Origin: Nymphaea colorata
Lineage: Eukaryota > Streptophyta > Magnoliopsida > Nymphaeales > Nymphaeaceae
Assembly (NCBI RefSeq): GCF_008831285.2
Contig: NC_045138.2
Span: 33,908,769-33,972,768, forward strand
Direction: 5' to 3'
Length of the DNA: 64,000 nt
Under the pieces are notes generated by a model. It worked only from the letters and a program-made list of their open reading frames with translations, searched no databases and was not told the DNA's origin. Positions 3,685-63,596 of the stretch are shown one piece after another (within the stretch, counting starts at the first letter, position 1; every line of letters begins with the position of its first letter). Position numbers and translations under genes: made by a program.

Positions 3685-4152
3685 ATGAGAGGAATATCAC
3701 AGGGATTGATAATCGGGATAACTATAGGAGTTGTAATAGGCCTGTCTTTGGCTGTATTTGCTCTCCTTTGTGTTCGATATCGACGAAGACGTGCACAGAT
3801 CAGTAGCAGCAGTTCACGAAGAAACACCACCATCCCTATTCGCATCAATGGCGTGGATGCTAGTACGATATTGTCTGATTCAACCATCGGCCAGGATTCT
3901 CCAAAACATTCTGATGCCAATGTCATGTCATTCTGGTTCGATGGTCCTAAAAGAAAGAGTTTAACTTCTATGTCTGGGATACCCAAATATTCATACAGGT
4001 ACCTCTGTCCAACATACACTTATCAGTATCTTGCGTTGTCTAGAGACAGTATACATTTCTCTCTCTATCGCTATAAGTAAGGGAGAAAGTTGTGCTGATA
4101 CAGAATGGTGTATGATAAGGGGGTGTGAAAGGTTTGCAGAGTTGCATGTACG

Positions 4153-4183
<31 letters not shown>

Positions 4184-7151
4184 GATATAATTTAGATGTG
4201 TAATTCCTTTGATTGATACTTTTCCTGCCAAATATTCACAGGGATCTACAGAAAGCCACTCATAACTTCAATACATTAATAGGTCAGGGAGCATTTGGTC
4301 CAGTTTATAAAGCAGAGATGCCTGGTGGTGAAACTGTTGCTGTTAAAGTACTTGCTAAAAATTCTAAGCAAGGAGAAAAAGAGTTCCATACAGAGGTAGC
4401 TCACTGGGATCAATATTCTTGGTGGTTTGTCTTATTGTTAGTTATCCTTCTTTTTCACTTGGAACTACTGAGATGAGGAGTGGCTCCTCATTGGAGGTTG
4501 ACCTGGGGTCATTTGTTTTCTAGTCTGAGTCCATTATTCTTTCCATCTTATTTAAGCAACAGTTTCCTCTTTATCCTAAATTCGTTATCGGGAATTCAAT
4601 TGTAAACTGGCATTTATCTCTTTATTCTAAATTGTTATTGGGAACTTAATGACAAAGTGGTATTTAGGAAAACAGAAAAGAAAATCTTGGTTGCAGTGCT
4701 GAACAAAAACTTTTTAGAATTTAATTTCAAGGTTAAATGGCCTAATGATATGACGGTTGCAAGTTGAGTTCTCTTTTTTCTGTTTCTTACCTGATTTTGT
4801 TCTTGATTGTTCCACTTCATTATGTAAAGAAAGTGGTCTTAGTCAATTACTTATGAGAAAAAAAAACGATCCTTTTCTTCTATTTCCAGGTTCTACTTCT
4901 TGGAAGGTTACATCACAGGAACCTTGTAAATTTGGTGGGGTATTGTACTGAAAAGGGTCAGAACATGCTTGTATATGTCTACATGTGTAATGGCAGCCTT
5001 GCTTCTCATTTATACGGTAAGTGGAATCATCATTTCCAATAGGGTGTGTATAATGCACCTGTTGTGTTATAATTCAAATACCAAAGCCAATTTACTAGCA
5101 TTTTGTTGACTCTATGGAGCCAAAATCTGAAACCAAATAATGTAACTTTTTATAAAGTAACCAACATGATATGCAGAAGATGATAAGTATTACTTTCTTA
5201 GCAGTGCTTTACGAAGGGAAAATTAATTCATTCTGGTTATGTGTGCCTCTGGACTCATCCATGTTTTTGTATAGAAATGCAAAATTTTATGCTTGCCATC
5301 TTAGTTTAGATTTTACTTTTTTCTGTGGCGAACAACTATTTCATTTATCCCACTGTAATTGGAATTTCCTGTAGTAACCTGGTAACTTCGCAGTATTGCA
5401 AAGAAAGAGAAGAGTTGATCTCTCCTGAGGTTGTTTATGTCTATCTTTTTATCCTCAGAGAAAACCAGCAGCATGATCTCTTTGTTTTGATGGCTCGTCC
5501 ATTGATGATATCTTTATGGTAGTGATAAATTCAAAACACCAAGAGAACTTAAGCTTGTCCTGATTGTCATGGTTTGCCAAATTCTTCTGATGGTCATTCT
5601 AGATTGTCTGATTTTCTGGACATGCAGACTTAAAACGTGAACCTTTGAAATGGGAGCTTAGAGTACTTATAGCACAGGATGTGGCAAGGGGCTTGGAGTA
5701 CCTTCATGATGGCGTAAGGCTTGTTATAGCAGTTTATTGAATGTCTAAAGCTTTAACTTTTGCTTATTTCTGGACTCAACTGTCTTTACAGGCTGTTCCT
5801 CCAGTTTTGCATCGAGATATAAAGTCTGGTAACATACTACTGGATAAGTCCATGAGAGCCAGGGTATGGAATTTCCACATCTTGAAAGAATTTGCTCTTA
5901 TTTATTTTCTACTTTCTGGGCGTGTAGATCAGCAAAATAATGCCTAATGAGGTATAACAAACTGAGACTGAAAATTCAGGATAGAAAATGATTCCTGAAT
6001 TTTCTTGTTGGTCATTGTCTATGCCTACAGGTTGTAGGGGTTAGTTTGATACTTGTATAATATGCTTTGTGGTTCCCAAATTTCGAGCATTCCTGAATCA
6101 TTCACTAACGCATTCTTGACCAGGTGGCTGATTTTGGGCTTTCAAGAGAGGAAGCAGTTAGTCAACGGGCTAATGATATCAGGGGTACTTACGGATATCT
6201 TGACCCTGATTATATATCAACAAGGTCTTACACCAAGAAGAGTGATGTTTACAGCTTTGGAGTGTTGCTTTTTGAATTGATCACGGGCAAAAACCCCAAT
6301 CAGGGCCTTCTCGAGTTAGTAGACCTTGTAATGCTTCTTTCAGCTTCAACCTTTTTTATTTTGAGAGTCTGCTGCATTTGCATAAAGTAAAACCTGTCAC
6401 ATTTCTCTTTGTTGCTAGAAATTTTCATGATCTCATAATCAGCTATCGTCTCATCAAGCCTATCACTCAATACCATCTCATTTAGGAGATGTAACTCCAT
6501 AGATTCTGCATGCACAGAATATTTGTATCACCTTTCAATTACTCAGTATATACTAGTGGAGTTCAGTTGGACTGATTCTGAAATTGCTGCTAAACATACT
6601 ACGCCAGAATAAAATTTGCTGTTACTTGCAGCTGATTTAATGCAAGGGCATATACTCATGCCAAAAGGAACATATTGCCATTGTTCATTGTTGATAAATT
6701 TATTATTGACATTGTTGTTGCTGCAAACTATTCTGTCACGGTGGTGCAGTTAGTTGGATAACTAAATTTTTATTACCTGAAAGGATCCTCACTCCAGTGT
6801 TTTCTAATTCACTATTCCCATGCTTAGGCTGCATTAAATGCTGAAGGAAAAGGTGGTTGGGAGGAAATTGTTGATCCTCGGATTGACCGGAATTATGACA
6901 CTGAAGAATTGAATGGTATGGCAATGCTTGCGTACAAATGCATGAACCGCTTGCCACGGAGGAGGCCAGCAATGGGTGAGATAGTGCAGGCTCTTTCACG
7001 AATCCACAGGCCAAGGCAGAGCAGGGGCCATACACCAACAATGTCTATGGACACTGCTTTAGAAATGAGCCAGCTAGAATCTCAGATTCCAAATGGGCAG
7101 CTACTCAGAGGAGAATCTGTTGACCGCATGGCAGTTCCCACAGAAGTTTAG
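3685..7151 (+). CDS. CRLK1: CRLK-type receptor-like kinase (CRLK1/2-like)
   Basis: Seven coding exons: 3685-3998, 4242-4395, 4890-5016, 5628-5713, 5792-5863, 6124-6327 and 6828-7151. All junctions are GT-AG and the frame is continuous, giving 426 residues. There is almost no ectodomain: a membrane segment lies at about residues 8-30, followed by a basic RYRRRR stop-transfer patch. The kinase domain starts near residue 106, with the glycine loop GQGAFGPV (119-126), ATP-site Lys140, catalytic HRDIKSGN (234-241, an RD kinase) and DFG (254-256). The wording LLLGRLHHRNLVNLVGYC and STRSYTKKSDVY is characteristic of Arabidopsis CRLK1/CRLK2, plasma-membrane Ser/Thr kinases regulated by Ca2+/calmodulin and linked to cold signalling through MEKK1. 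Ca2+/calmodulin control here is inferred from the family. Two upstream ATGs precede the start. The next gene, L24 on the same strand, matches the Arabidopsis neighbour order. Confidence 0.9.
4153..4180. repeat. (ATAC)n microsatellite in CRLK-like intron 1
   Basis: About six tetranucleotide units, followed by AT-rich sequence, lie within the intron between coding exons 1 and 2. Confidence 0.85.
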
Positions 7152-9679: not shown

Positions 9680-12657
9680 ATGGCAGCCATGGCTGCGTTA
9701 CAGCTCTCCATGTCTTCCCTTTCTCTCTCTAAATCTTTCCTGGGCCAGAGCCTTTCTCCCACTCTTTACCCATGCCAGGTATGACTCGCTCTCTCTCTCG
9801 ATTCTGCGTGTACAAATGTGAAACCAAAATGGTTGTCCCTCTTCTGTCATCTTTTCCATGTCGATGATGTTTCTCTGTCGGATTTCCTTGCTCTTTGGGA
9901 GCAAAGTTCAAACTGTTGTGTATCTATGTTTCCCTTGGAGTATGTTGAATTCAAGAATTTAAGTATTAAAATGATGTGAATTTCATGAAACTGGCCTTTA
10001 ATGGGACTTTGGACCTGTGAAACGATCTTCTTCTGCCGTCCATGTTGTAAATTTTGTGGTCGTGGTACTGATTTTACGTTGCCATTGAACGAACCTCTTC
10101 ATGAGGCGAATAAAAATGAGAAATGTGTCGTCGGTGCCGAAAAGTTTAAGGTAAGTGACCACGGAAAATCGAGCTTCGTTATCTACTGTGGCCCCATGGC
10201 AATGTTGCCTCTCACGTGGAAGATTTATGAGATCCCCATGAAGTTCACGTTCGAAAGATCGTCTCTACTATGGATTGTCGAACTTCGGAATGACAAATTT
10301 TGGAAATGGCAAAGAAGAATTAGGTAAACAGAGAACGTTGGCACCAGTAAGCCAGTGACGCAATGGAGTGTGTTCATTCTGGATTCACTGAGAGCTAGGC
10401 TTGAAGTAGTCTCCTTGTGTTCGGTTCCTTGGATCAGATATGTGCTTTCTGTGAATCCCTTGTTCTCAATTCGACATTTTCTATTTACAACATTTAGTTT
10501 GCAATTCCTTTGCTAGTATCATGCGTTGGTGATTATCGTCTAGTGTGGTATACTAAAAGAGACTTTCGGTCGTTATCATGATAGTGTTTATCAAAACAGA
10601 TGTTTAAATCGTTGACTTGCGAAAGAAAATTGTCTTTCTTTCCTTCATATGCCTTCGGTTTACAACTTATCATGGGAAACTTGCTGAAAATGTTTTATCC
10701 CATTAAAAGTGGCTGTAGCTTCAAGTTCAAGCTGCAAAAGAGGGAAATTGCTTCTTAGGAGCAAACCACGGACAAGTTTGCACATTATAAGTCCCAACTT
10801 GTGAGAATAGTGCATGACCACTTGTGGTAGCCGATGGTGCTTGATGTAGATATGGGGTTGCCGATTGCTTTCAAACGTGTTTTGATCCAAAAGCCTTCAA
10901 GAAATCGTGTCAAGAGCAACTCAAAACAATATGGAATTTGTCTAGTTGCCCGTCTGTGGCACATCTGGTAAATATGTCCGTCCCAGTCTACATGATATCC
11001 TCAGGGTTTGATCGTCTAGGATTTGATCTGCTGGCTATTGGGTTGCTATCACAAGGTGAATGATGAAACCATGTAGAACTTGATTGGTTTGTATACGAAG
11101 CTTAAATTCACAGATCAGAAGATGGACTTGATGCCTTTACTGTTTGTTGAATTGGGAATAATTTTAAAAAGGCTATCATCTGAACTAGCGTAATTTGTTG
11201 ACCTGTTGTATCTCCTTCACCTTTGTAATTGTATGTCAATAAATTGAACACATACTTTGCAGTAAGTATAGATGCTTGGTAGAATAGAGAAGGTTGCACT
11301 GCCTTGGAAGTCGGAAGATTTAGTTGCTTTTCATTATTTCTTTCCACAAGGACAAATTTTTATGCTCTACACTATGAAAATGCAGGTTCAACGCCCCACT
11401 CAGCCATCCCCTGTGGTAATGAAGGTAAGAACAATGCCAGTTTGCTGTTTGAATCTACATGCCTTTGTCAAATAAGTTGTTTCTGGTTACTCGATATTAT
11501 TGCTGGAAATTAGAAACAATGGTTTATTGCTCTGTTATATGTTTTGTGATCTGCAGAACTAGTTTGTTGTCTCTTTCTTACTCTTCTTTTACTCAACCAG
11601 TTAAAGCGATGGGAACGGAAGGAGTGCAAACCTAACAGCCTCCCGGTGCTGCACAAAATGCATGTTAAAGTAGGAGATACAGTACAAGTAATATCTGGGC
11701 GTGATAAAGGGAAGATTGGTGAAATAACAAGTATTTTTAAACATAATAGCACTGTCGTAATCAAGGACATTAACCTTAAGACCAAGCATATGAAAAGCAG
11801 AGAAGAGGGTCAACCTGGACAGATTGTGAAGGTTTGCTTTTCCTTTCACTTCTATTGCAGCATTCTGTTTCGTAGATGCTTCTGTTTCTCCTTTTATCGT
11901 TTCGTAGATGCTTCTGTTTTTCCTTTTATTGTTTGTAGTAGTAGTATGGTGGAATCGGATTGATATCTTCAGCTGTGAAGGCATTCTTCTTTCTGCTCCA
12001 ACGCTGGGCTCTTGAGATGGTGTTTTAAATATTTCTCATACCATGGTTGCAATGCTACTTGGATGCTGAAAAAATTGGCTGCTCGATTGAATTGCTAAGT
12101 TGTAGGTTTATTCTACACTTTTGTCGCATTACACTTTTAGCTGATGTGAGCTGCCCATCGAACCAATTATGAATGGAAAGGTTAAGTTGACACCAAGCAG
12201 TTAAGAATTTGTCATTTACTAATGTGTGCTCCATGTGTTCACCTTAACATAGTTAATAAACCTGATGCATATTTCGATTCTTTTAAGTTTTAAGAATATC
12301 TGATCATATTTGTTCCTGTGATCTGACTATTTCTTGCAATGGCCATCTACCTGAATATGTTTGGGAAACGTCTTTAATAATTAAGCTTGATGATTGTCTC
12401 TCACAATACAAAAGAGGGAAAAAGAAAGTGAACTAACTGCATGTGGTCTTGTGCATTTGCAGATTGAAGCTCCTGTTCACAGCTCAAATGTGATGCTGTA
12501 TTCCAAAGAAAAGCAAGTTGCCAGCCGTGTAGGACACAAAATCCTTGAAGATGGTACTAGAGTACGTTACCTCTTGAAAACGGGTGAGGTGATTGATAGT
12601 CCTGAGCAATGGAAGAGGGTGGTAAAGGACAGGACAAAGAATGAAAGTTCTTCATGA
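9680..12657 (+). CDS. RPL24: 50S ribosomal protein L24, plastid (uL24c)
   Basis: Four exons: 9680-9778, 11386-11424, 11601-11831 and 12463-12657. All are GT-AG and all junctions are in phase 0, giving 187 residues. Residues 1 to about 45 are rich in Ser and Leu and poor in acidic residues ([20 protein letters not shown]), as expected of a chloroplast transit peptide. The mature part starts near [12 protein letters not shown] and carries the KOW/SH3-like RNA-binding fold ([20 protein letters not shown], about residues 67-86). A conserved C-terminal extension follows ([23 protein letters not shown]). The protein would be imported to the stroma, where it helps assemble 23S rRNA in the large subunit. 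It matches Arabidopsis SVR8 (At5g54600) closely. The acceptor before exon 2 has a weak pyrimidine tract, but the frame and the 13-residue exon fit. An in-frame ATG at codon 4 is an alternative start. Confidence 0.93.
11867..11930. repeat. 32-bp tandem duplication in L24 intron 3
   Basis: Two nearly identical 32-base units containing CGTAGATGCTTCTG lie end to end just downstream of the exon 3 donor. There is no effect on coding. Confidence 0.75.
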
Positions 12658-16981: not shown

Positions 16982-17766
16982 ATGGAAATTTCAGGTGATC
17001 GTCCGAAGAAGGAGATTACCTACTGCGTCACTGGGGGGAGTGGCTACATCGGGTCGTGGCTCGTTAAATCTCTCCTGGAAAAGGGCTACAAGGTCCACGC
17101 CACAACCAGGGATCCAGGTTCACTCACTCCTTCTTCTTTCAGATGTTCTCAATCTTCTGGTTTCAGGCAGTGTTATTGTTACCTTGAGTTGCCGGCATGA
17201 ATTTCTAGACCGCGAAAACGACCTACCAACATAGGTGTTGACAAAAAAAACAGTGCTACATTCCACGTCATGAAAACCACAAAAGCAAGTTCCCAGAGTT
17301 AGCCGTATAATGAAAGAGCTCACAAGAAACTTAGAAGCTAGCATGATGAGAAAGTGCCAACTTCTGAAATCTATAAGATTTAGAGATCTTCCTTTATCTC
17401 TGCTCCATCTCGAGAAATCGCAGGTAGGAGCTCAACTTCTCCGCCGGCTGATGATTTGTGCCGTGGAGCTTTAGGTATGCCACCAAGGCCGCTAAATACA
17501 AAGTTTGAAAGGTTAAATGAAAGACTAAAACTTACAAGCCTCCAAACTACATTGGACCCATTTGCCGCCCAACACGGAACCCACGTGATATATGCCACGG
17601 TCGAGGACATTCAGTGTGACTTTCATCAACAGTTTCCAATCCCTTCATGCCTCGAGTCCACCTGGGAAACAGCACCGCCTGAAAAGGCTGGACTCTTGTG
17701 ATCACATGCCCGCCCAGCTTCCATCCGGGCCAGCCCGCGTGGGCTTCGAATGATTTTCGAAGCACG

Positions 17767-17804
<38 letters not shown>

Positions 17805-18547
17805 GTGCACTTGTTCAAGGATAGTGGGCGAGCAACCCATCGAGTGGGTCATAGAAACACAGGTTATGTCATTGGGGCTGTGCATGGTGCAACCCGGTGC
17901 ACATAACCATTTCTCCATAATTTCGAGGTGGAGCCACTGGGGGCCGGTGTGCGGTCGTCATTAATTCATACATAACTATCTCTTTGGCCCTCCCTCGAGT
18001 AAAAGATTACACGCTCGTGATGCAAATTATGGTTATGGACCACCCTGACTTGGGTCGACTGCTCTTCTCTCTAACCTCTTGACTTGAGACTCGGGCTTTA
18101 GGTTGGTAATCAAGTTGTTAGAAGATAAGTACGTAAAGTTTTAAGTAGCGTTTTTAGCACTTTGGTATAATATTTACTCCCATGGTTTACATGTGCTATC
18201 TTTTTGCATTTTTTTGTTATGTTCTTGTTTCTTAATTTTTCTTATCCAATTCCTAAGATGTGTGCTATTTATAGGATCAGTTTAATGGAAATACACTCTT
18301 AGATAACCTAAAACGAACATATCTCAAGATTCTTCATCTTGTGATAAAAAAATCAATAGCAAAAAATGTATCAAACTTCGAATCCCATATTTATAACCTG
18401 TATGTGGCAGTGGTGATTGCTGTATACTCCTTCGTTTTTCTACTATCGGGCCCACATTGTGATTGCTGTCATTTGTGATCCAAGGGGCGAATAGCGTGAC
18501 AGAGCACGTGATTAAAAGACTCTATAATCAATTGTTTCTTTTATTTA

Positions 18548-18623
<76 letters not shown>

Positions 18624-20447
18624 GTGTGAGTGGACTGAAGAAAAGGTTTGCTGGTAGTGTAAATTAATATTGTTTGGTGATAAGTCAGCTTCGCTGTTAA
18701 CGATTTTTTGACCCCCTCGTGTTCAGAGAAGGCATCCAAGGTTCTGTCCTTTGGAAACGATCATGGAGGCAGGCTCAAGGTCTTCAAGGCTGACATGATT
18801 GAACCGGGCAGCTATGATGCGGCAGTAGAGGGCTGCGATGGCGTCTTTCATGTGGCAGCTCATATGGAGTTTGGCGTTTACAGTAGACAAAATCCTGGTA
18901 ACCTTTCTTTCTTTTCTCCTCTTTCTTTATATATAAAATGTACATAACGTATGTCGAACGGCTGAATAAATATAATGTGAACTACTTATGAGATATATGT
19001 GACAAATTTAATTGATGCTTCGTGGCATATTCGATGATCATTTTGAGTTATCCAGTCAATTTACTTGATAATTGCAAGGCGTCACATGTAAAATATTTTT
19101 TGAAGTTCATATCTTAATTGTTATTCACCTTTTTTGAGTAAATAAGCTTACACATATTCACATTTTATGAGACATGGTTTGGTTAATTGGATGGCCTAAA
19201 ATCAGTATCGATGGTACATCATTTATACAAAGATAGAATGAGCTTTCCTTTTCTATAAAATTTTGGAAAGTAAATTATCATATCTTGTCATTAATTTTAA
19301 ACAAGTGCTCATGGTTGTTTGATTCGGTTGATCCACACTTATTTAGTAGTTCAAGTCAGGGATAAATCTAAATTGTTGAAAGTGCGACTTTAGTTAAATA
19401 ATTTTTCATTGTATAGAAAATTTAAAGAAAAACTCAAATTTTGTCTTTTCGTGGATTCAGTTTTTGGATCAAATATTAGTTTTTTTGTAATCTAAGTTTG
19501 GGTCTATATAGAAAGGTTGCTTTGTCGAATAAACAACTGATAAATGTCCCTCGGTGGCACTCAATATTGATCGGCAGACAGCTATCTGAAGTCCGATGTC
19601 CACAAGCTGGCGACGGCCGGCACACTGAACGTTCTAGAAGCTTGCCTGAAGGCTAAAACGGTGAAGAGGGTGGTGATGACGTCGTCCGTCAGCATCATCA
19701 CGGCAAGGGACGTCGGCGGGAAGCTGAAGAGTACGGTGGTGGACGAGTCCTGCCTTAACTCCATCGACTCCATTCTGCGCGCCCGGGCTCATGGATGGGT
19801 AATCACCCCCACTCCCCCTCTTTCCTTTTAGAACGAGTTCCGTTTTGTTGTCCAACCTGCAGCATCTGCATATGATCTGCACTCAAAATTGGATGAGGAG
19901 AAGCGTGCAATGACAAATGAAACAATGAATTAATTATGTTGTTTAACACAGTTGCTTCCTCAACATTCACCATTAAAGAAAATATAGCTTCTCTGGTTTC
20001 ATTAGCTTAATTTCCTGTCACATCTACAGGTCTAGAATTAATTGTGTTGTTTAACACAGTTGCTTCCTCAACATTCACCATCAAACAAAATATAGCTTCT
20101 CTGCTTTCATTAATTTAATTTCCTGTCACATCTACAGGTCTACGCAGCATCAAAGATCATTGCAGATCAAACGGCACTAAAATTTGTTAATGAGAAGGGC
20201 TTGGACTTGGTGTCCATAATACCATCAACTGTGGGCGGTCCATTCTTGACCCCTACTGTTCCTGCAAGCCTCCAAGTACTGTTGTCCCCATTCACAGGTA
20301 GGCCTGGCAAACTACCCAAATCCAGAATCGACCGTGAAGTCATGGGGTTGTTTTCTTGATTTAGATAATGAAGACAAACCATTGAGAATCTGAGATCGTT
20401 CTTATAGCTTTTCTTTTCAATCAGAGAAGTGGGGACATGATAATTTG

Positions 20448-20483
<36 letters not shown>

Positions 20484-22165
20484 GTATATGTATGTATGTA
20501 TGTGTAGGATACTGATAGCAATGCAGTTGTGCATAAAACTTTTTACAAACTTCTAAGAATTACAGTTGATCTGTCACACTAATTTGCAGGAGACCGGGGC
20601 CTTTATCCGATAATAACTGCAGTGAATTCCAGATTGGGGTGCATCCCCATTGTCCACATAGAAGACATATGTGACGCTCACATTTTCTTGATGGAGGAAA
20701 GGGAGGCAAAGGGACGTTACATTTGCTCTGCACATAGTTGTGATCTCCATCAACTCACCGACTTCTGCAATCAGCAGTATTCCCTTCCCGTCAAACACAA
20801 GTAAAACTCTCTACTCCTTAGCTAATAAATGACGCCCAAACATGATGTTGATGAACTCCCAACATGAAAATTATAGCGCAGCATGAAAATCTATATTACC
20901 AAGAGTCCATGATTATGTGCAGTTGGTGAAGATGCGATGATCTGGTATGTGTTTGGATGAAAAGTCATCAGGAACATGTTCTTGAGATGTGACTTTGTAA
21001 ATCAAAAGCTTTCACTCGAACAAGAAACTAGCTTGAGAACTTGAAATCCCAAGAAAGACATAATAAAAACTTGATTCCTTACCTTCGGAAAACTTTTAAA
21101 ATATATCCTCTCAAGATGAATGCATATGAATAAGTTGTTCCTGTGTGTGAAGGCAAAACGGACTCGGATCTGCTAGTAGTAATTTACTTTCAGTAAGACA
21201 GCAACAGAGAATAATGACGAGATATCTTTTCCAGCGACTTGCTTAACCACTTTCCTGAGGTTGAGTTTTATTGGGACAGCCATGTAGTTGAAAACTCAAA
21301 TTAAAAGAAAAAAGAATATATTAAATTAGTTATTTTCTGAGATCAAGAAAGGCATCATATTAATTTGTCAAACACCTCATTATTCTAGTGGAAAAGACAA
21401 AAGTTGCTGACTTAGGCTGCCCAATAAAAATTAACCATCTCCGTTCCTTACTGGTATGAATTGATATTACGTTTTTAAGGAAATGTTTGATGGCATGCAG
21501 AGAAGATACCATTGAAGTACGAAGGGGCCATTAAATATGGTGAAATTGGTGAACCTTTACCCCTTCTAATCTTTTTTACTTTAAAAAAAGGAGGGAGAAA
21601 GAGTCAGACCTGATGCATTCCATTTTTTTTTCCTTTATTTCGTGCACTCAAAATGAATCCATCAGGTGTCCAATAGATTTATGTGTGCATCCAACAAGAA
21701 GGGAGTCATGTAATTTTTTCTACCGAACTGACGAGGGCACATATTTGCGGCGGCGAGTTGACAGTTGTTAAAAGTGACGGCTATTTCAGGTTAAAGTTAA
21801 CATGTAACATGTTGGGACAAGTGAAGCCTTTTCATGAAATTTAGAAACGCGGGACACGTTTTCTAGGATATGACTAAAAATCGGGCACGTTAATGGAGAT
21901 TTCCATAATATCAGAGAGATAGAGAGAGGAAGGGAGACTCTGTTCTTGCGGAGCTCAAATTGAGAAAGCAGTAAAAACTCATCAATAGCTTCTTGTCGGT
22001 TGCAGATTGTCGGACGAGCCTGAAGGGTGGACTCCTACAACACTCTCCTCTGAAAGGCTGAAAAAGCTGGGCTTCCAATTCAAGCACGGGATGAAGAAGA
22101 TACTCAAAGACACCGTTGATTGCAGCGCTGAGCTTGGGCTGCTCAGCAGCACTCCACCAAACTGA
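16982..22165 (+). CDS. DFR/anthocyanidin-reductase-like NAD(P)-dependent SDR
   Basis: Six exons: 16982-17117, 18727-18897, 19578-19798, 20138-20297, 20590-20800 and 22006-22165. All are GT-AG, giving 352 residues, typical for the family. The Rossmann NADP-binding loop TGGSGYIG is at residues 17-24. The active site shows Ser138/139 (VMTSSVS) and the YxxxK pair Tyr178/Lys182 (VYAASK). Further family blocks are [27 protein letters not shown] and [14 protein letters not shown]. This is the extended SDR family of dihydroflavonol 4-reductase, anthocyanidin reductase and cinnamoyl-CoA reductase. The closest remembered match is the uncharacterised Arabidopsis At4g27250 rather than true DFR or BAN, so the substrate is unknown. 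The enzyme has no signal peptide and is probably cytosolic. Intron 1 (1.6 kb) holds microsatellites and unclassified sequence; intron 3 carries a duplicated splice acceptor. It is tail to tail with the zinc-finger gene. Confidence 0.88.
17380..17700. other. GC-richer segment in SDR intron 1
   Basis: This part of intron 1 is less AT-rich than its surroundings and is open for about 80 codons on each strand. I do not recognise either peptide. It could be a transposon or gene fragment inserted in the intron, but no ends are visible. Confidence 0.25.
17767..17801. repeat. (TA)n microsatellite in SDR intron 1
   Basis: About 17 TA units within the first intron. Confidence 0.9.
18549..18627. repeat. 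(TA)n(TG)n compound microsatellite in SDR intron 1
   Basis: A TA run of about 30 bases passes into a TG run of about 40 bases. It can form left-handed DNA in principle; most likely it is a neutral length-variable tract. Confidence 0.9.
19927..20142 (+). repeat. 108-bp tandem duplication carrying a 3' splice site
   Basis: Units at 19927-20034 and 20035-20142 differ at a handful of positions. Each contains the pyrimidine-rich tract and the acceptor CATCTACAG. The second acceptor (AG at 20136-20137) is the one that keeps the SDR frame. The first (AG at 20028-20029) is followed in frame by GTC TAG, so its use would end translation at once. Confidence 0.88.
20450..20505. repeat. (TG)n(TA)n(TATG)n microsatellite in SDR intron 4
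   Basis: A compound dinucleotide tract, ending in TATG-type units, lies in the intron between exons 4 and 5. Confidence 0.85.
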
Positions 22166-39369: not shown

Positions 39370-39641
39370 TGTTAAAAAACCATAAGAGGAACAAGGAGAA
39401 ACAGCAAGAATTTACGTGGTTCGGCACTGAGGCCTACGTCCACAGAGGAAGAAGAAGACTTTCTCTTTTTTTATTTCACTGCTCTGTTTACAATCAAAGA
39501 GAGAAGGGAGATTTATACACTTTGATTTTGGTGATAACCAAGAGAACGGTTATGCAAAGAATTAGGGAGGATTTCTTTCCCTTATCTGATCAATTGTAAC
39601 AGCAGGATACTATTGATATGCTTGCCAATCTTGATGTCAAT
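39370..39641 (-). repeat. Outer copia 3' LTR
   Basis: Matches 49879-50173 in direct orientation and starts TGTTAAAAAACC immediately after the ATATC target duplication. Confidence 0.85.
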
Positions 39642-40790: not shown

Positions 40791-41146
40791 CCATCAGGTA
40801 AAGGAACTAGATCCCAAGTCTGATTTTTTTGTCAGTGCCACAAGCTCCTCTTTCATTGCATTTCGCCATTCTGGATCAAAATTAGCCTCCTCATAGGTTT
40901 TTGGTTCATGTTGGGAATATGCATTTAGGATATAGGATTTATAGTGAATGGGCAAGTTTTCAAATGAAAGGTATTGGTCTATGGAGTAGTTTTTGTTTGT
41001 AAGATAAGTGTAATAGTCACTAAACTTGGTTGGTGGTTTAGTAGGGTCAGTGTACCGTCTAATGGAGTTTTCTTGAGAGGTTTGGCTTGAGTTGCTCAAG
41101 TTGGAATTGGGTTCAGTGGAAGGAGTGAGAGGATTGGTGTCGGTAT

Positions 41147-41198
41147 TGATAGAAATGTAGCACCAATATCTGTAACCCGAAAACAGCACTCAAGCAGG

Positions 41199-41243
<45 letters not shown>

Positions 41244-41606
41244 TGAAAACAAGAAGAAACTGAGGAGAAGAAGCCGTAGCCAAAATGGTTTGCACGGCCT
41301 CTATTTATAATCTCATTTTCAGAATTCTAAGAGTCTCCAATCGTAGAATCCTAGGAGATTTCACAAGCTTCAAGGACATTAATTACATCATAGAAACCTA
41401 AGAGACTTCACATATTACAAGGATATTAACTACAACATAGAATCCTAGGAGACTTCCCATATAACAAGGATATTAACTATAACATAGAATCCTAGGAGAC
41501 TCTTCACATGTTACAAGGACATTAAATATTTTAACACATTCTACAAGGAGGTGGAATCCTAAGAGACTCCTCTTCAACGTGCTGGTGAAGGATTTATATT
41601 TTAACA
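41147..41606 (-). repeat. Inner copia 3' LTR
   Basis: 460 bp, direct repeat of 46139-46598, preceded by the GGTAT target duplication. Confidence 0.95.
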
Positions 41607-46016: not shown

Positions 46017-46120
46017 GAATTGCGCAAGAGAAAAGTAAATTCAGGATAGAGACAAGATGAGAAAAGAGTTCTAACCAGATCAGACCTGTTTGGGCATTTC
46101 GTTTGGTAGAGATAACGTAA

Positions 46121-46138
46121 CCTGGCGCTCTGATACCA
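46121..46138 (-). other. tRNA primer-binding site of inner copia element
   Basis: On the minus strand TGGTATCAGAGCGCCAGG directly follows the 5' LTR. TGGTATCAGAGC is the usual plant copia site for initiator methionine tRNA. Confidence 0.9.
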
Positions 46139-46190
46139 TGATAGAAATGTAGCACCAATATCTGTAACCCGAAAACAGCACTCAAGCAGG

Positions 46191-46235
<45 letters not shown>

Positions 46236-46598
46236 TGAAAACAAGAAGAAACTGAGGAGAAGAAGCCGTAGCCAAAATGGTTTGCACGGCCTCTATTTAT
46301 AATCTCATTTTCAGAATTCTAAGAGTCTCCAATCGTAGAATCCTAGGAGATTTCACAAGCTTCAAGGACATTAATTACATCATAGAAACCTAAGAGACTT
46401 CACATATTACAAGGATATTAACTACAACATAGAATCCTAGGAGACTTCCCATATAACAAGGATATTAACTATAACATAGAATCCTAGGAGACTCTTCACA
46501 TGTTACAAGGACATTAAATATTTTAACACATTCTACAAGGAGGTGGAATCCTAAGAGACTCCTCTTCAACGTGCTGGTGAAGGATTTATATTTTAACA
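46139..46598 (-). repeat. Inner copia 5' LTR
   Basis: 460 bp, direct repeat of 41147-41606, followed by the GGTAT target duplication. Confidence 0.95.
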
Positions 46599-46603
46599 GG
46601 TAT

Positions 46604-47669
46604 GAGGTTGTTGAATTCTTTGTGGTGAAGGCAATGATGTAGGCAAGGACACAACATTTGAGGTGCTTTGATTTGATTCAGAATGAGGCTGTCTTGCGAA
46701 AGGAACTTCATCGCCAATTCCAACTAATGGCAATACAGTCTTCTCACTTGCATAAGGAGATTTCTTGTTGTTTTCAGCTATGGGCTGCTTGACGTTCATC
46801 TCCCCCTTTCTTTGGTCATCAAAGAATGACTCCTGTTCAAAAAACTTCACATCACGAGATATAAGAAATTTTTTAGTAGTTGGATCATAACACTTGTACC
46901 CCTTCTTTCTACTAGAATAGCCGAGGAAGATACATTTAACAGCATGCTTTTCAAATTTGTTCCTAAATTTTTCTTGTATATGAGCATAACACTTGCATCC
47001 GAACACTTTATAATGCTTTATAGATACTTTTCTATTGAGAAGAACTTCTATAGGAATTTTATTTTTAATGCTAGAGTTGGGTGCCCTGTTGGCAATATAA
47101 CATGCTATAGTTATAGCATCATTCCAAAAACGAAACGGAACATGCATATGTATCATAAGAGAACGAGCAATGTTCAGAAGTTGTCTATTTTTTCGTTCAG
47201 CAACTCCATTCTGCTGTGGGATACCAACACAAGAGTACTGAGGCTGTATTCCTTCTCCTTTTAGAAAGTTTTCAAGAGCATCATTCACACATTCGCCTCT
47301 ATTATCGAAGCGAAGTTTTTTAATTTTTACTCCATATTGAGTATGTACCATCTTGAAAAAATCTTGAAAAGCATTAAAAACTTCACTCTTATGCTTGAGA
47401 AAAAACAACCAAGTCATGCGAGTCTTATCATCAATAAAGGAAACATAGTATCTAAATCCAGAATATGACACTTCTGGGACTGGTCCCCAAACATCTGAGT
47501 GAACTAAATCAAAAATTGCATTAGACTTTTCAGTAGAAGATTGAAATGGTAGTCTCGTGGATTTAGAAAATTCACAAGCATCACATGAAGTATTTTCAAC
47601 TGTAAGATAAGGAATAAGACGAATTAAATTTTGGTCAGAGATGTGACCAGGTCTGGCGTGCCAGGTCAA
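46604..47669 (-). other. Integrase region of outer copia element
   Basis: Contains copia GAG-pre-integrase and integrase core words (WHARPGHIS, CDACEFSKSTRLPF, FDLVHSDVWGP, GIPQQNGVAERKNR). It abuts the right target duplication of the inner element. Fossil. Confidence 0.85.
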
Positions 47670-48579
47670 CTTCTATCTTTCTGGTCATTCATCATGAAAC
47701 TGCAACTATCTTTCTCCATCACGTACAACTCATTCTGCTCGTGCCCTCTACCAATCTCCCGTTTCATCACACGATCCTGAAATATCACATCCTTTGAGGA
47801 AAAAACAGCCAGATAATCATGAGACTTGGTTAATTTGCTTACTGACATAAGATTTGCTGATAGTTTAGGAATATATAAAACTCGAGATTTCTGCCCCCTT
47901 TCAAAGAATTTAGTTTCACCGTATCCTTCAGCAGTAATTGCCGATCCATCAGCAGTAAAACAGGTCGTTTATTTGTTTTGTCAATGTTGATCGATTTTGT
48001 TATGTCACTAGACATATGATCAGTAGCTCCTGTATCAATGACCCATGTAGAACGATTTAAAGTAGCAGTCAAAGCAAAGTTGTTACCTTCAGAATTGCTG
48101 ATGGGCTGAGATGAAATTAAATTTGTCTTGGCGAATTTTTGAAAGAATTTCTCAAGATCGTCCTTGGTAACGAAGTTGGCTGAGTCAGAATTTGTGGAAG
48201 TCACTGCTTTATCTCTTGTGGGTTTTCCAACCAGCTCTCAGCATTTTTCACGGGTATGCCTAGATCGCCTGCAGTGGGTGCATTTAGATTTGTTTCTTCC
48301 TTTCTGTTAGCTGAATTTGGCATTGAGAGGCTTGTTGGCATTCAGAAGTTTTTGATCTCCTTTGGTATAATCGGCTTGGTCTACATATGCCATTTTTTCA
48401 TTGCTTTCTTCAGTTTTGGTGTTGGAATTCATAACTTGTCTTCGGGCAGCCTCCCTTTGTATCATTTGACAAACGCTATTGAAGTTGGGAAAGGGAGTGG
48501 TATTAAGGATTTGACTCCTAACACCCTCATATTCAGCTCTTAATCCAGCCAGAAACTTAAATATTTTGTCTTCTTCAAA

Positions 48580-49095
48580 TCAAATTTTGTATGTATCGGG
48601 ATCAGTCGTAGCAGGCCTATATTGCATAAGTTCATCAAATCGGCTTTTGAGTTCTCCTATGTAAAGATTTAGCAGCTTTTCTCCCTTCATAAGGTTGGCG
48701 ATCTCGACTTGAATTTGATAAACTCGTGCGAGATTATTTTGTTCGGAGAAGAGTTGTTTTAACTCATCCCAAATCTCTTTTGCAGTTTCTTGATACATAA
48801 ATAATTTTAAAATAGAGGGCTCCATAGAGTTGATAAGCCATGACATTACCATATCATTTTCAGATTGCCAATCATCAAATTTAGGATCCGAACTATCTGG
48901 AGGACTGATCTTTCCGTTTATGTAGCCGATTTTGGATCGTCCGCTTAAAAATAATCGAGCCGCCTTTGCCCAACTCAAGTAATTTTCACCATTCAAGAGA
49001 ATATTGGTGATTTTCAAAGGTTGGATGCCTTGTTCGTTGTTATTGAGGCGTCTAGAGTTTTCTGTATTTTCTTGTCTTTGTTGTTCGCTTGCCAT
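48580..49095 (-). other. gag region of outer copia element
   Basis: A UBN2-type copia gag with the motif NGENYLSWAKAARLFL, belonging to the broken outer element. Unlike the inner element's gag in sequence, so the two elements are different families. Confidence 0.8.
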
Positions 49096-49878
49096 GATTT
49101 AAGCCAAGAAATGACAGAAATCTATCAAATATAGAAAGAGATATCAAAAAAACCAACCTTGGTGCAGCAGAGAATTCAGAAGACCAAAGAAAGATTCCAG
49201 AAGGCCTGGCGGAACTACAGGACTCCTGGTCGACAGTGGAGGTCCTTCTTTGAAAAGTCACCAAAAATCAACCCAAGCTCCAATCGTTCTGAAATTTGGT
49301 CCACAGCACCCTTGGATATGTATGGAAGGACGCCCCAAGAATGAGCTTCAACCGACTCTCCTAGGTAGGACTCGTTGAAGCTGGAAGATGTCAATCTGTT
49401 GCAGGTTCCAATTCTGTTCAGGTTAAGGCAAAGAACAGAGGAACAAAAGCGATTCTCAGGACAGGGCGATCTTTCAAAAATCACCACGGATGATCTCGAC
49501 CTCCAAAAATCCTAAAAACTGGTTGGTAGGTGGCTGATATCCCAAGGAACAGACGTCCAAAAGATCAAGCCAAAAAAGGAACTCCAGATATGACTCGTTG
49601 AAGGGTTTCTCCTCTGTTTTAATCACCCACCCAGTTCTGCTATCTTATGCTGAAACAGAACACAATAGATAAGCGGCATGAAGAAAAACAAGGTTCTGCC
49701 GATGCCGATGAAAATTTTGGTTGAGCATCAGACAACAGACTCCGCAAGCGTGAAACGCCGTTGAATAAGAATTCCAAATCTGATGATAAATTCAGCAGCA
49801 GCTCCACAACCACCCGACGCTTCAAAAAAACAGCAGAGAAAAAATTTCCAGCAGGATCACATAACCTTCTCTGATACA

Positions 49879-50173
49879 TGTTAAAAAACCATAAGAGGAA
49901 CAAGGAGAAACAACAAGAATTTACGTGGTTCGGCACTGAGGCCTACGTCCACGGAGGAAGAAGAAGACTTTCACTTTTTTTATTTCACTGCTCTGTTTAC
50001 AATCAAAGAGAGAAGGGAGATTTATACACTTTGATTTTGGCGATAACCAAGAGAACGGTTATGCAAAGAATTATGGAGGATTTCTTTCCCTTATCTAATC
50101 AATTGTAACAGCAGGATACTCTTGATATGCTTGCCAATCTTGATGTCAATCTTCCTCAATAAATCTCGTAACA
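49879..50173 (-). repeat. Outer copia 5' LTR
   Basis: A 295-bp repeat running TGTTA to TAACA, followed by the ATATC target duplication. A sequence resembling an initiator-Met tRNA primer site adjoins it on the element's inner side. Confidence 0.85.
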
Positions 50174-50178
50174 ATATC

Positions 50179-54924: not shown

Positions 54925-55002
54925 CTTCTATTTGGGGAGAAAAAATGTGCCACCAAACTTGGTTTGGATTTGCATGAATCGACCCATATGTGTCAGTATG
55001 TA

Positions 55003-55311
55003 TCAGGTTAATTCAACTTTTTTTTTTTCTTTAATGCCATCTGCTTTTTGAAATTTCGAATTGCTGTAAAGTAACCTCTGTCTGTTTCGGAGTCCAGACA
55101 ATCCAAATAAATCGGCTGCCTCCAAGTTGAGATGGCCCATGAGGTCTGTTCCTTCACAAAACAATTCACACCATGCCTGCTCACCAACAGGATTTGTCGC
55201 GGCAGTATCCTTTATCTCATACGTCCCTTCCAAAATCCAACCATGGTCAGCCTGGCTTCCCTTCAGAAGGAAGCGGAATAAACAAATAACTAAACATTTC
55301 CCCTGGGACAT
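55003..55311 (-). other. Unrecognised ORF downstream of TPS copy B
   Basis: Counterpart of 32803-33105: a 102-codon frame beginning MSQGKCLVICLFRFLLKG with the same GTYEIKD and CELFCEGTDLMGHL blocks. Differences are confined to a few residues, mostly at the C-terminal end. Family not recognised; it could be an exon or gene fragment carried along in the duplication. Confidence 0.35.
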
Positions 55312-56008
55312 GCATCAGTTCCTAGCATGAGAAAACGACTCCCGTACTCGAGAAATCTTTGTTACATAGGCCCCCGCTTTGTTTATTTTCTAAAAAGTTC
55401 CAGACCAAGAAGTGCTATGTATGTCATTATCTATTAACCTCCAGATCAGCTAGATTAGAGGGGGCTGATAGCTGTATCCTTCTTTTTTCACTACAAGGAC
55501 AGACTCGTTTTCTGAGTCTACCATATAAGCCGCGGAATGGGCATCTTTCAGATTTTTTTTCCTTTCATACTCTACAAATCAAACTAGAGAACTCGTAAAA
55601 AAATCATGTTCTAATTATAAGTCTGCCAAGATTTTCAAAGAAAACCCATCTTATATATCAACCCTTTCATTTTTATCAATCTTGTAACAAGTATATCTTA
55701 ACAATGGCGATGAAGAACAACATTAATATTGCTAGCAATTGTCTCGCATTATGAAAACATGCACGGGACGGAAGCATGTTTTAAGCTAGCACCATGACCA
55801 ATAGAGAAGTTTCTATTTTATTTTATTTTATTTTACTTAAGAAACATGCCCAAGCTACAGATAGATCAAAGAGTTACTAGCCGGCCAACAGATTTGCAAA
55901 TCCCCGGGCACGAGATGATAACGCAAGCAAGCAGACACTAGGACACAGCCTTGAACAAGCCGGTAGTCCAGTTCAACAGCATATATAGATTACGAAGACG
56001 AGGGTTTT

Positions 56009-59000
56009 TCAAATAGGAATGGGGTGCACCAAGAGAGAGGCGATGTGCTCCTTGGTCTTCCCATCCGAAACCCCGAATCCATCTCCATCCTTGTAGAAGA
56101 AGTGGGTGGCTCGTGCAAGGTTTACAGAGGCATCTATCAGGGCTCTGGGCACGTCGGTTGCCACAGCACATTCCTTGTTTAGCTTCTTCCACGCCTGGTT
56201 CAGCAAGCTGTTGATGTGCTCACGGGCCGCCTCCTCCTCCACGCCCTTCTCGTTCATGTGGCAGTGCAGCGCCGGTTGAACGTCCCCGCGTTCTAGCTCC
56301 GACTTCATATGTAAAGCGGCCACCAATAGATAACATTCATTTAATTAGTTGGGCTTCCATAAAATGAGTACTAATGCATTTGACATATACGTACATATCC
56401 AACTTCAACGACGACGTTGGTAAAAACCCACCTTCAATAACATACTACCGGCATTCAAGAAATCTTCACCAACATGTACCCTTAACAACTACATCCGTTT
56501 CCCCATGCATCGGTGAATCTATTTTTTTTTGTAGTGCGGTGTGCATGTGTATGCTTCAATACGTGTATGTGTTGTGGGTGTAAGTGCGCGCATGCTTTTG
56601 CATAGATGAACCGGATTAGAGAAAGAAGGGCGCATACTGGTCCGGTTCCCACATCATTAGTCAGCCTGTGAATGACTGATGCCCAATAGATAATCCTACT
56701 CTTCTGCCTCATCATGTTGATTATTTCCTTCGTCAGTTGTATGTCCAACGCCAAATATGTCATCAGCAAGGCGGGGACTAACCCAAGCGATGCCCATGCG
56801 TTGTTCATGTGCTCTTCAAGCGTTGGCTTGTGTCCCTCGTGATACCACTTTGCTTCCACCAATTTTGATTTGCACATCACTATCCACTATAGAACAAAGA
56901 TCACGATCCAACCATGTAAGTTAATTGATCGATCTGGATGAACCAACATATTATAATCCTATATATATAAGATCAGAAGAAGATTAAAAAAATTGCTTCA
57001 AATTTTGATGCTGGGTTAGTTTACTGCTGCTCTGCAAAGGTTTCGAGTACTTGAAATCTCATTTCGAAAAGAAGGCCAAGCTAGGTTGTTGAAACAAATT
57101 ACGGAGCTAGCAAATGATCAGTTGTAAACATCAGAAAGTATATAATCAATTACCTCATCTTTCAGAATTTCTGTGGCATCCAACCCATGCTTCTTCAAGG
57201 CCAAGTAGGCAATTTCATTGATGAAATTGAAGACAGCTAAGTAGCATAGTTTCATGAAATGTGGGAGTTCCCCCAATACCTTTAAGTCCCACCTGAAATG
57301 GTGTACCAAAATTTTAGTAGCTTTTCCATAGTGAAGATCAGAATAGTCAAGAACCATACCCAGAGAAAACAGAGCAATTCCAAAGTGCTATGTTTTCCAT
57401 TCCACGGGTTATCACGGATTAGATAAGCACTCTTAACTCCTGTAAATGGATCCGGATTTTAGATCCTAAAATAGTGACAGTATTAGGTCATGACCAGATT
57501 TGGGGTCCATGTGATTAGGGCCCATTTGATAACAATAGCTAGTTGTTATTGTAAAAATTGAGACAAATTCATTAAACATTGCATATTCTGTTTATCTATT
57601 TTAATTTTGGAGGCAAGTTCATGGAAAAATAGCAACTTGTTACAATTGCTAAACATGCCCTTAGAAGTTGTTTGGAACCAGTAACAATTTTTTATTGTCT
57701 AGTGAGATTGCTTGAAAAATTTGAGTAGGTTCATGAAACCATGTAACATAACTTGCTAGTGCTTTATGAAACCATGTAACATAACTTGCTAGTGCTTTAT
57801 GAAACCATGTAACATAACTTGCTAGTGCTTTATGAATTTATTCTAAATTTTAGGTCAAAATCACTGGATAGAAATAATCTGTTATTAGTACCAAATAACT
57901 CCTTAAGGATACATCCAAATACATCTCCGAAAAAAATATATATATGTATTAGGCCTGCAACATTACCAACAAAAGCAAAATATTTTTTTTCATTGAAAAA
58001 ATTCAGATCTTTAGGAGATTTTTGGTCAATTTTCTCATCCACCAATTGTTAGAATCCGAGTGTCAATTGGATCTCCTTTGTCATTAATATTGTGAACATG
58101 GAAATATTGGTGGTACCAAAAAAAGTATAACTAAGGGATACTAATGCATACTCATAAAAAAAAAATTACAAGTAAACAAACACAGTAAACATAAAATCGC
58201 AACAGAACTGAAGTATGACACGTTGCGCCTCTCCAATTATGTCGGCATGATGATTTCTCCCCAGCGATGCTACCAACCCGGAAAATATGTGTCTACGTGA
58301 GGATCAGAATTCAGAAACGAGAGAAATTAGGCTCAGATTGCGCCCTTCTTTCTTTTTTCTCTATTTTTTTTTTTATTTTTTATTTATATGCTGGGAAGGA
58401 AGGAAGATGATTCTTAATGCTTAACCATGTCAACGGATTGGTTTCATATATATTTTATTATATTTTATTTTTAAAATATTTATATATTCAAATTAAAAAA
58501 AGATTCTAAATTTTATAAAGTAAAATTCATACCATATCTGAATTCAAAATCCAAATTCATAATTTAAATTCAATCTGAGTCTGAATCTTAACTTAACTGA
58601 ACCTAACCCGTATCGTAGACATTGATTATAGGATTTTTTTGTGTTAGATCTTAATTAAATGTAAATATGAATCCTAATCCAATAAAATGTCATTTCTTAT
58701 TTAAATGTTAAAATTTTGTCCATGTCTTAATTTTTTTTTTTTTCTGATGGTTGGGTCACATCAGTCATCCCCAATCTCGTGAATATTTGCGGATGTTGGG
58801 GACACATATAACGACGTTGGCTTCCCCCCGCCCCCCAACTGTCGATCTCCTTAGATTGGTACTCATGCTGATCACATTGCAACTAATATCCAAACCCTAC
58901 AATTTCGAATGTGTACAATAATATCAGTTTGTGTTGGTAAAATACAACCATTTAAAAGCTTTGCATCATATCTAATTATCTCAATGTCCATTAAGTGTTA

Positions 59001-60889
59001 AAATTCCCTCATAACCATGCTCAATCATGTGTGCAATGACGTTTGCACTCTCATGAAAACTAAGTAGAAAGCTGCATATAATATAACAACATTGACAGCA
59101 CAGGGCTGCTGCAATAGTTGTGCCTGTTGTTGTTTTTCAATGGTTCGAGAGACCTCCCTCCCAGCAGGCGTAAGAACATTGGCTGACACATTCCCCGAGG
59201 TAAAAAGGTCGTAGCCTACCTACCAACAAGGCGAACAATCGTGTTCCATGCATTTTTACATATGACAAAAAAAATTTGGAGAAGGGAACAAAAACGAAAA
59301 GCAGGTACCTTTCAGATGCCTTTGTGAGGAGCTCGACTTCATCAATGGATGCATATAGATCATAGACGTCATCAAGAACAGAGAGCAGAGCGACAAGCTT
59401 GCCCAGTACTTTGCGGGAGTCTGAGTGCTGCGGCTCGGGGCAGGTCGTCACTCCCCACAGGTAGCTCTCCGCTAACCTGTCCCTTGCAAAGCTCAGCTTC
59501 TCATCAAGCTCCAGTTCTCTCCACCACCTGAAACAGAAATTTAACAACTCGCCGTCGATCACTTGCAAAAAGAACTTGAAACGAATTGCTATATGATCCG
59601 TCTCATAATGAATAAAAAATCTGACAACCGAGCAGGAAATCATAGCTAGAAGGAGGAAAAAAGAGAAGAAAACAGAGTACCTTGCTAGCTCTTTGAGCTC
59701 TTTGTGGTAGATTGTCTGCAGAATGTTGAAATCCAGTTTTGCAAGCTCAAGCAGAGCAAGGTTCTTCTCTTCCTCCTCCTCGTATGCGTCTATGCTGGAC
59801 CTGACCTCGAGTCTTTCTGCTCTCCAGTGCAGAGGAAGATCCAGGGCACGCTCTACTTCCCTTTTCAGCCCCTCGTCAATACTGATGTCCTTCCCGCCAA
59901 CAGCTGCCTTGAGATGCAGAGCTGAGAAGGACTTCGCCTCATCCAAGTTATCCTCCCCATCAAAACCCAGGTATGAAGCTTCATACAGACTGAGCAACCC
60001 TTTTACATCCGCCGCTAAGCTCAACTTAAAATTGCCTTCCTTGTCTTTGAAGCTGTTAAATATATCTTTTTCCCAACAACCCGAAAAGGAAAAAAATTGA
60101 ACATTAAGCAAACTTTTTACCCTGTCTTTTGCGTATTCAGAAAAAACAAGTTTCACTTTTTTCTTGTTAAGCACAGTCCAAAACCTATCAAATAAAGATC
60201 TTATTAATGCCCTCATTTGACGGTTTTCCTTCTTTTTTAGAATTATAAACAAATCAAAACAAACATATAACAACCGCCAACCTGAGGAAACATTGAAGCC
60301 ATACTGCCTCAGCAGTCGAAATCTCAGAGCAGTTTCGTGCAGATCTTTCTGCGTCTGATTGCCATGAACATCACACAGATGCTGCAGCGCTGCTTTGATT
60401 TCCTTCTCAAAGTGGTATCCAACACCAAGGCGTCGTATCGAGTCAATGTTCTTCAATAGTCCTGAGGGATCTTGGGTTTCCGTTGGTTCAAGCAACGACT
60501 TGACCTCACTCTTCAGTTGCTCTCTTCTATCTCCATGTTGCTCCTCCTGCATGCACAAAACAAACATCAGCTCTATTTATATTTCGTAAAATCGATCCTT
60601 TGATCTTGAACATTGAAAAGAACGCTGGAGAAATCGTCGGCTCAAGTAGGCAGACGTGAATTCAATATCATATCGTGTTGCAAAGTATGCTGACATCATG
60701 TTCATATGGCATCGATTGATCTCATCTGATCGCGTTTTATGGATCATGTATGCACATATAATCAAGCTTAAGAAACAGAACAGAACAGAAGCTCACTGAG
60801 AAGGCACTGGAGATCGATTGGATGGAGGTGTGATCCCAAACGGTGGGGTGGTAGTTCGCGCTACGACGGGTCACCGCCTCAGAAGCCAT
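56009..60889 (-). CDS. Class I terpene synthase (copy B, intact)
   Basis: Seven exons on the minus strand: 60889-60797, 60546-60282, 60065-59681, 59527-59309, 57292-57154, 56886-56638 and 56302-56009. All are GT-AG with continuous frame, giving 547 residues. RRx8W is at Arg8-Arg9...Trp18, RDR at 263-265, DDVYD (DDxxD, Mg2+ and diphosphate binding) at 300-304, and the NSE/DTE motif NDVGTGPSE at 444-452. The C-terminus is HPIPI. The enzyme ionises a prenyl diphosphate (GPP or FPP) to make a cyclic or linear terpene. There is no plastid transit peptide before RRx8W, so a cytosolic enzyme is likely; subfamily TPS-a or TPS-b and the product cannot be told. It is divergent from H2A, with 1.9 kb between start codons. 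Introns 2 and 3 are multiples of three and free of stops. Confidence 0.9.
57733..57831. repeat. Three-copy 33-bp tandem repeat in TPS-B intron 4
   Basis: Three essentially perfect units beginning ATGAAACCATGTAACATAAC. They are absent from the matching intron of copy A, so they arose after the duplication. Confidence 0.92.
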
Positions 60890-60979
60890 TGATGAGTACT
60901 ATCGAAGCAACCACAATGGGACGGCCAGATGTCGTCTAGTGTTTGCAGTGGGTGATGATGGCGTTAAGACTTAGGCGCC

Positions 60980-62731: not shown

Positions 62732-62739
62732 ATAAAATA
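62732..62739 (+). promoter_or_regulatory. TATA-like box of H2A
   Basis: ATAAAATA lies 75 bases upstream of the ATG at 62807, consistent with the short leaders of histone genes. Confidence 0.5.
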
Positions 62740-62806
62740 CGAAAAGCAGAGCATGAATCCAACAGTCTCGTGACTCCTCCTCTCTCTTGCCGTGGAGAAG
62801 GAAGCA

Positions 62807-63596
62807 ATGGCGGGAAGAGGGAAGTCTCTGGGTGCGGGCGGATCGAAGAAGACGGTGTCCCGGAGCAGTAAGGCCGGCTTGCAATTTCCGGTCGGCAGGA
62901 TCGCCCGGTTTCTCAAGGCCGGCAAGTACGCCGAGCGGGTTGGTGCTGGTGCCCCAGTATACCTTGCCGCGGTGCTCGAGTATCTGGCAGCTGAGGTGAG
63001 AAATATTGAACGTGGAATCTTCTCTTTGTCTAAAGGCTCCTTCGGTACTCTGTTTCCGTTTCTCGTTCCTTGAAGAGAAGAGATAGCGCTGGGGTTTCTC
63101 ATTTAGGTTTTTTAATACTGCGTTTTCTTCGACCATTCTCTCTTTCAGCAAAAAATTTTTCAATGTTTTTCCTGTTAATTTGGTCGTACTGGAATTTCAA
63201 GAGTCAGCTTGTTCTCTGATTTTCGACAATCTTTAAGTTTAGTAGTTACGGCATTCGGTTTTTAGCGGGTTTTTTCGTTTCCGATGTGACAAAATTTAGA
63301 GCTGTACGAAAAATGGGCCCGTATGTTGCCCTGTTGGTGTTAGTTTTTACTCAGATTTTTGAAACTTTTTGAAGGTTTTGGAGCTTGCTGGGAACGCTGC
63401 CCGTGACAACAAGAAGACAAGAATTGTGCCTCGCCACATTCAACTGGCCGTAAGGAACGACGAGGAGTTAAGCAAATTGCTCGGCGCTGTGACGATTGCG
63501 AACGGCGGTGTGATGCCCAACATTCACAATGTTTTGCTTCCTAAGAAAATCGGTACCTCTGCTTCCGACAAGATTTCGAGAGGTGACGACAATTGA
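62807..63596 (+). CDS. Histone H2A (canonical, HTA1/HTA2-like)
   Basis: Two exons, 62807-62995 and 63375-63596, with a phase 0 GT-AG intron (acceptor AAG), giving 136 residues. The start is the ATG giving [12 protein letters not shown]; no ATG lies upstream in the same frame nearby. The histone fold is complete: [14 protein letters not shown], the [23 protein letters not shown] block ending exactly at the intron, [11 protein letters not shown], the NDEELSKLL acidic-patch region and [15 protein letters not shown]. The C-terminal tail is short ([16 protein letters not shown]). It has neither the SQEF/SQE motif of H2A.X nor SPKK motifs, and it is not H2A.Z, so it is a canonical nucleosomal H2A. 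It packages DNA with H2B in the nucleus. The intron after residue 63 is common in plant H2A genes. A second, truncated copy lies at 54700-54924. Confidence 0.95.

Follow-up and report, generated by a model that had tools for sequence, protein, structure and literature searches.

Unrelated genes can hold their order across the deep splits of the angiosperms, and where a whole-genome duplication has been followed by fractionation, the duplicate copies retain different subsets of the original genes (PMC8626473, PMC7015852). Synteny among Amborella, Vitis and Chloranthus, in particular, is reported to be highly conserved (PMC8626473). We compared with this background a 64,000-nucleotide stretch of DNA (the window; G+C ∼40%, plant nuclear DNA) that carries, in order, genes for a receptor-like kinase, plastid ribosomal protein L24, a reductase of the DFR superfamily, a single-finger C2H2 protein and a histone H2A. 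The closest described counterparts are two segments of the Arabidopsis genome, AT5G54590 to AT5G54640 and AT4G27230 to AT4G27250. On chromosome 5, AT5G54590 is CRLK1 (PMC7284356), AT5G54600 is PRPL24 (PMC7602965) and AT5G54640 is HTA1 (PMC3380720), and on chromosome 4, AT4G27230 is HTA2 (PMC3380720) and AT4G27250 is ABH2, a DFR-like phaseic acid reductase (PAR; PMC11356453, PMC5395610); AT5G54630 and AT4G27240 are both given as C2H2 (PMC3485569). In tomato, Solyc07g063960 is ribosomal protein L24 (PMC11210149), and Solyc07g063970 (SlPZF1) ranks first in similarity to AT5G54630 among five homologues (61% identity; PMC10515234).

Gene order in the window and in other angiosperms

The five genes were modelled by hand from the sequence alone. 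All 16 introns of the five models are bounded by GT-AG, and every frame is open. An earlier reading of the window, made from its letters without database searches (the sequence-only reading), had listed five genes in the order kinase, L24, reductase, C2H2 and H2A, and the open multi-exon models confirmed both their positions and their order, on strands +, +, +, − and +, respectively, with limits that are exact: the kinase ATG lies at 3685 and the H2A stop at 63596 (Table 1). As a five-gene block, the arrangement stands in its order and not as an uninterrupted run, two terpene synthases and two Copia elements lying between the C2H2 and H2A genes. Four of the five proteins were recognized by Pfam at 0.001, the threshold used for all five unless a relaxed run is stated; the C2H2 protein was the exception.

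Arabidopsis locus numbers follow chromosome position. Read in ascending order, they give kinase, L24, C2H2 and H2A on chromosome 5 and H2A, C2H2 and reductase on chromosome 4, and when the two segments are interleaved, the result is kinase, L24, reductase, C2H2 and H2A, which is the order of the window. In print, the Arabidopsis loci are assigned to the same families as the five genes of the window, and the colinearity with both segments that had been claimed holds for the families and for a compatible order in a comparison of locus numbers and published family names. The families given for the seven loci in the sequence-only reading all agreed with print; the one exception was the name SVR8 for AT5G54600, which was not found in PMC7602965. 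In contrast to the window, neither Arabidopsis segment carries all five genes (according to the list in the sequence-only reading); the window carries them together with the terpene synthases and Copia elements.

Because Solyc07g063960 and Solyc07g063970 bear consecutive locus numbers, L24 adjoins the AT5G54630-like gene in tomato as well. The linkage of L24 to the C2H2 gene is common to tomato and, with small gaps, to Arabidopsis and the window, although it concerns one pair only. The window differs from the tomato pair in having the reductase between the two genes, where locus numbers leave no place for one in tomato. A lack of adjacency in other angiosperms, which had been named beforehand as counting against colinearity, is therefore contradicted for this one pair. 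In the literature examined, conserved microsynteny is found at family level, from locus numbers in Arabidopsis and a single pair in tomato, and we see no difference of kind from the fractionated angiosperm microsynteny described above. Since genome-scale angiosperm synteny has already been described, the block is an ordinary instance of it: gene order that survived duplication, of a kind already known.

Table 1. Features of the window (positions in nucleotides from its first letter; LTR, long terminal repeat; ORF, open reading frame)
Feature	Position	Strand	Description	Evidence
Receptor-like kinase gene	3685..7151	+	426 residues, 7 coding exons	PF07714 1.6e-48
Plastid ribosomal protein L24 (uL24c) gene	9680..12657	+	187 residues, 4 coding exons	PF17136 9.9e-22
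DFR-superfamily reductase gene	16982..22165	+	352 residues, 6 coding exons	Epimerase/SDR PF01370 2.6e-27
Single-finger C2H2 protein gene	24622..26904	−	425 residues, 2 coding exons	Splice sites and finger in model
Canonical histone H2A gene	62807..63596	+	136 residues, 2 coding exons	H2A_C PF16211 7e-18
Terpene synthase copy 1	32719..38501	−	Frameshifted	Limits from repeat alignment
Terpene synthase copy 2	54925..60907	−	DDVYD, open exon pieces	PF03936 4.6e-74; limits from repeat alignment
Copia element 1	41147..46598	−	460-bp LTRs, 100% identical; one long gag-pol ORF; nested in Copia element 2	
Copia element 2	39370..50154	−	Older, broken, split by Copia element 1; terminal repeats 97% over 276 bp	

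Probable descent of the neighborhood and its alternatives

We hold with considerable confidence that the window contains an angiosperm gene neighborhood conserved by descent, of which the two Arabidopsis segments are fractionated daughters. In its outline, this account is very likely correct; within it, we infer orthology, the ancestral state and the polyploid origin of the Arabidopsis copies. An ancestral neighborhood of kinase, plastid L24, DFR-like/PAR reductase, C2H2 and H2A genes would have been inherited by descent. In the Arabidopsis lineage, a duplication of it, for which polyploidy is the most likely cause, would have been followed by loss of different members from the two copies, so that the chromosome 5 copy retained kinase, L24, C2H2 and H2A and the chromosome 4 copy retained reductase, C2H2 and H2A. 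That each of the two Arabidopsis segments has a C2H2 and an H2A gene is as expected if a single block was duplicated. In the lineage of the window, a terpene synthase lies between C2H2 and H2A and was tandemly duplicated, after which one Copia element inserted beside terpene synthase copy 1 and a second inside the first. The sequence itself shows which genes are present, their order, that the five are intact, the tandem duplication and the nesting of the insertions.

Several points weigh against this account. The kinase, L24 and the reductase are each found on one Arabidopsis segment, and linkage of all five genes comes from merging the two; moreover, the family-level assignments admit paralogues. 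Searches of the literature by locus name returned no treatment of the block: at least two of six of its loci were named together in three papers, each time as the HTA1/HTA2 pair, and the only other co-occurrence listed was among members of the C2H2 family, with no co-occurrence of two or more among six neighboring chromosome 5 loci, and no paper for AT4G27260 and AT5G54510, which we take to be the GH3 neighbors of the two segments, combined with “segmental duplication.” In the published comparison, Amborella had the fewest blocks in common with Chloranthus (PMC8626473). Tomato supplies one adjacent pair only: no kinase, reductase or H2A was found there in the papers examined, and the other nearby numbers belong to a GRAS gene (Solyc07g063940) and the unannotated Solyc07g063910, neither of which is a member of the block.

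The alternative that survives best is that only part of the neighborhood is ancestral, the L24-C2H2 and reductase-C2H2-H2A linkages being old and the kinase a CRLK2-type paralogue (CRLK2 is AT5G15730) that lies nearby by chance. The kinase protein has a single N-terminal hydrophobic segment that peaks at residue 12, no ectodomain, and the motifs GQGAFGPV, VAVK, HRD and DFG. Its top matches among solved structures were the SymRK, LysM-RLK and FERONIA kinases, and no CRLK chain was among the best 60. Because the solved kinases offer just SymRK and the like, the protein is a putative CRLK, and neither the Pfam nor the structure matches separate CRLK1 from CRLK2, which fits this alternative, as does the restriction of the published tomato evidence to L24-C2H2. 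However, the kinase gene adjoins the L24 gene in the window, and AT5G54590 and AT5G54600 have consecutive locus numbers; we therefore regard a partly ancestral block as unlikely.

It is considerably less likely that the order matches by chance, or by false assignment within large families. It is well established that three of the five families (kinases, SDRs and C2H2 proteins) are large, and the assignments here are at family level. Nevertheless, we estimate that, with co-location granted, four genes would match in order in ∼1 in 12 cases and three genes in 1 in 3; by our estimate, it is also very unlikely that several of the families would lie together in both places at all, and tomato repeats one linkage. 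Least probable of all is that joint function or shared regulation has kept the genes together, even though at least one pair stays linked in distant angiosperms: a kinase, a plastid ribosomal protein, a reductase, a C2H2 protein and a histone have no known common pathway, and the block is split here by terpene synthases and Copia elements and lies on two chromosomes in Arabidopsis, which upholds the earlier preference for descent over a functional cluster.

The reductase as a candidate PAR

The reductase has the motifs TGGSGYIG and YAASK, and its matches to solved chains include a ketoreductase (9m3k, 3.6e-71), DFR (2c29, 1.6e-67) and anthocyanidin reductase (2rh8, 1.7e-67). In the structure alignment, a Thr of the reductase aligns with Asn133 of the DFR chain 2c29, and anthocyanidin reductase likewise has Thr at this position. 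Three types of DFR are distinguished by residue 133, which is N, D or A (PMC11356453); having Thr in the alignment with 2c29, the window reductase belongs to none of them. However, two Dioscorea sequences, whose function is unknown, have Thr, and fern DFRs that are active have Arg (PMC11356453); DFR activity of the window reductase is therefore still conceivable.

AT4G27250 is a DFR-superfamily reductase in the corresponding place beside C2H2 and H2A genes, and because it is PAR/ABH2, the “DFR-like” gene of the window becomes a PAR candidate by position. That position, the sole pointer, suggests that the gene is the orthologue of phaseic acid reductase, a gene of abscisic acid catabolism, and this is the useful gain of the comparison. 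More generally, such blocks anchor orthology where sequence alone cannot separate paralogues. Separately, the end of intron 3 of the reductase gene (19927-20142) carries a 108-bp tandem duplication (94%) that copies the 3′ splice site; use of the upstream decoy acceptor would run straight into a stop codon.

Plastid L24, histone H2A and the C2H2 protein

The L24 protein matched the plastid uL24c chain 5mmi (1.1e-80) over query residues 1-179 of 187. The match begins at the first residue and takes in the N-terminal extension, which places the protein in plastid uL24c. The H2A lacks both the SQ(E/D) motif of H2A.X and the SPKK motif of H2A.W and is thus of the canonical type. Its best solved chain was “Histone H2A.6” (8kcb, 3.5e-71; identity 116/126), which we take to be the HTA1 product; identity to two other solved chains, presumably also plant H2As, was 113/126 and 112/126, a margin that does not discriminate between HTA1, 2, 10 and 13.

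The C2H2 protein has one CX2C-X12-HX4H finger, at residues 193-214. It had no Pfam match at 0.001; on a relaxed run, zf-C2H2 appeared at E=0.064, below threshold. The gene is putatively of the AT5G54630/SlPZF1 type (C2-li). No Pfam family was matched by the C-terminal region. By eye, the C-terminal ∼210 residues (24622-25253, minus strand; RFYGTT, SGRAY and EELYLLNP) resemble an ADP-ribosyltransferase-like fold with an altered triad. We do not claim an ADP-ribosyltransferase/PARP-like domain, as the tests of the C-terminal 209 residues were negative or uninformative. At E up to 10, Pfam gave only Perm-CXXC (0.2) and RIF2_lid (0.23), and the three solved chains matched, none of them a PARP, were two TPR-like repeat proteins (6.2e-06 and 1e-05, each the sum of four weak repeats of which none passed alone) and ribosomal S24e (1.6). 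A single-sequence AlphaFold model of the region was useless, with a mean predicted local distance difference test score (pLDDT) of 32. Likewise, no literature was found that pairs a zinc finger with SSF56399, the label for this PARP-like reading.

Insertions between the C2H2 and H2A genes

The terpene synthases belong to a tandem repeat in which 32719-51003 aligns with 54925-62477 in 17 pieces at 80-98% identity. A one-base difference in the length of exon 4 shifts the frame of copy 1 relative to copy 2; copy 1 may therefore have become a pseudogene, or the break may reflect an error in sequencing. The interval occupied by Copia element 2 in the first repeat copy corresponds in the second to a 5-base gap (61939-61943) between aligned pieces. 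This nearly empty counterpart site and the nesting of the elements give the order of events as duplication, older Copia and young Copia. Copia element 1 is probably young, given its identical LTRs and single long gag-pol ORF. We infer that the terpene synthase and Copia events are later than the linkage of the five genes.

Queried with approximate splice junctions, copy 2 had sesquisabinene, limonene and cineole synthases as its best solved matches (7.2e-135 to 1.8e-133), and the same search gave delta-cadinene synthase at no great distance (1.9e-114), 4S-limonene synthase with no better a match (1.2e-115) and aristolochene synthases at 7e-92. We take the sesquisabinene, limonene, cineole and 4S-limonene synthases to be TPS-b and delta-cadinene synthase to be TPS-a. 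On these matches, the terpene synthases of the window are likely to be TPS-b. In Nymphaea colorata, TPS-b genes number >80 and TPS-a genes are absent (PMC7015852); magnoliids and Chloranthales show expansion of both TPS-a and TPS-b (PMC8626473). TPS-b-like genes would fit a water-lily-like source, and magnoliids too, and we suggest tentatively, as a rather doubtful possibility, that the source of the window is an angiosperm that diverged early and that the window preserves the ancestral neighborhood in unfractionated form. If so, the PAR gene would already have stood where it stands now before the flowering-plant crown, and that position would be a synteny marker for dating PAR.

Across the window, Rfam at gathering scores and a tRNA search each gave no match, nor was there any Pfam match among the ORFs scanned outside the gene models (nine at 0.1 and three at 0.001, from a list of 84). 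Near a G+C-rich stretch, two 115-bp direct repeats (51875-51989 and 52921-53035) lie 1 kb apart and are 98% identical; the pair is possibly a small non-autonomous element.

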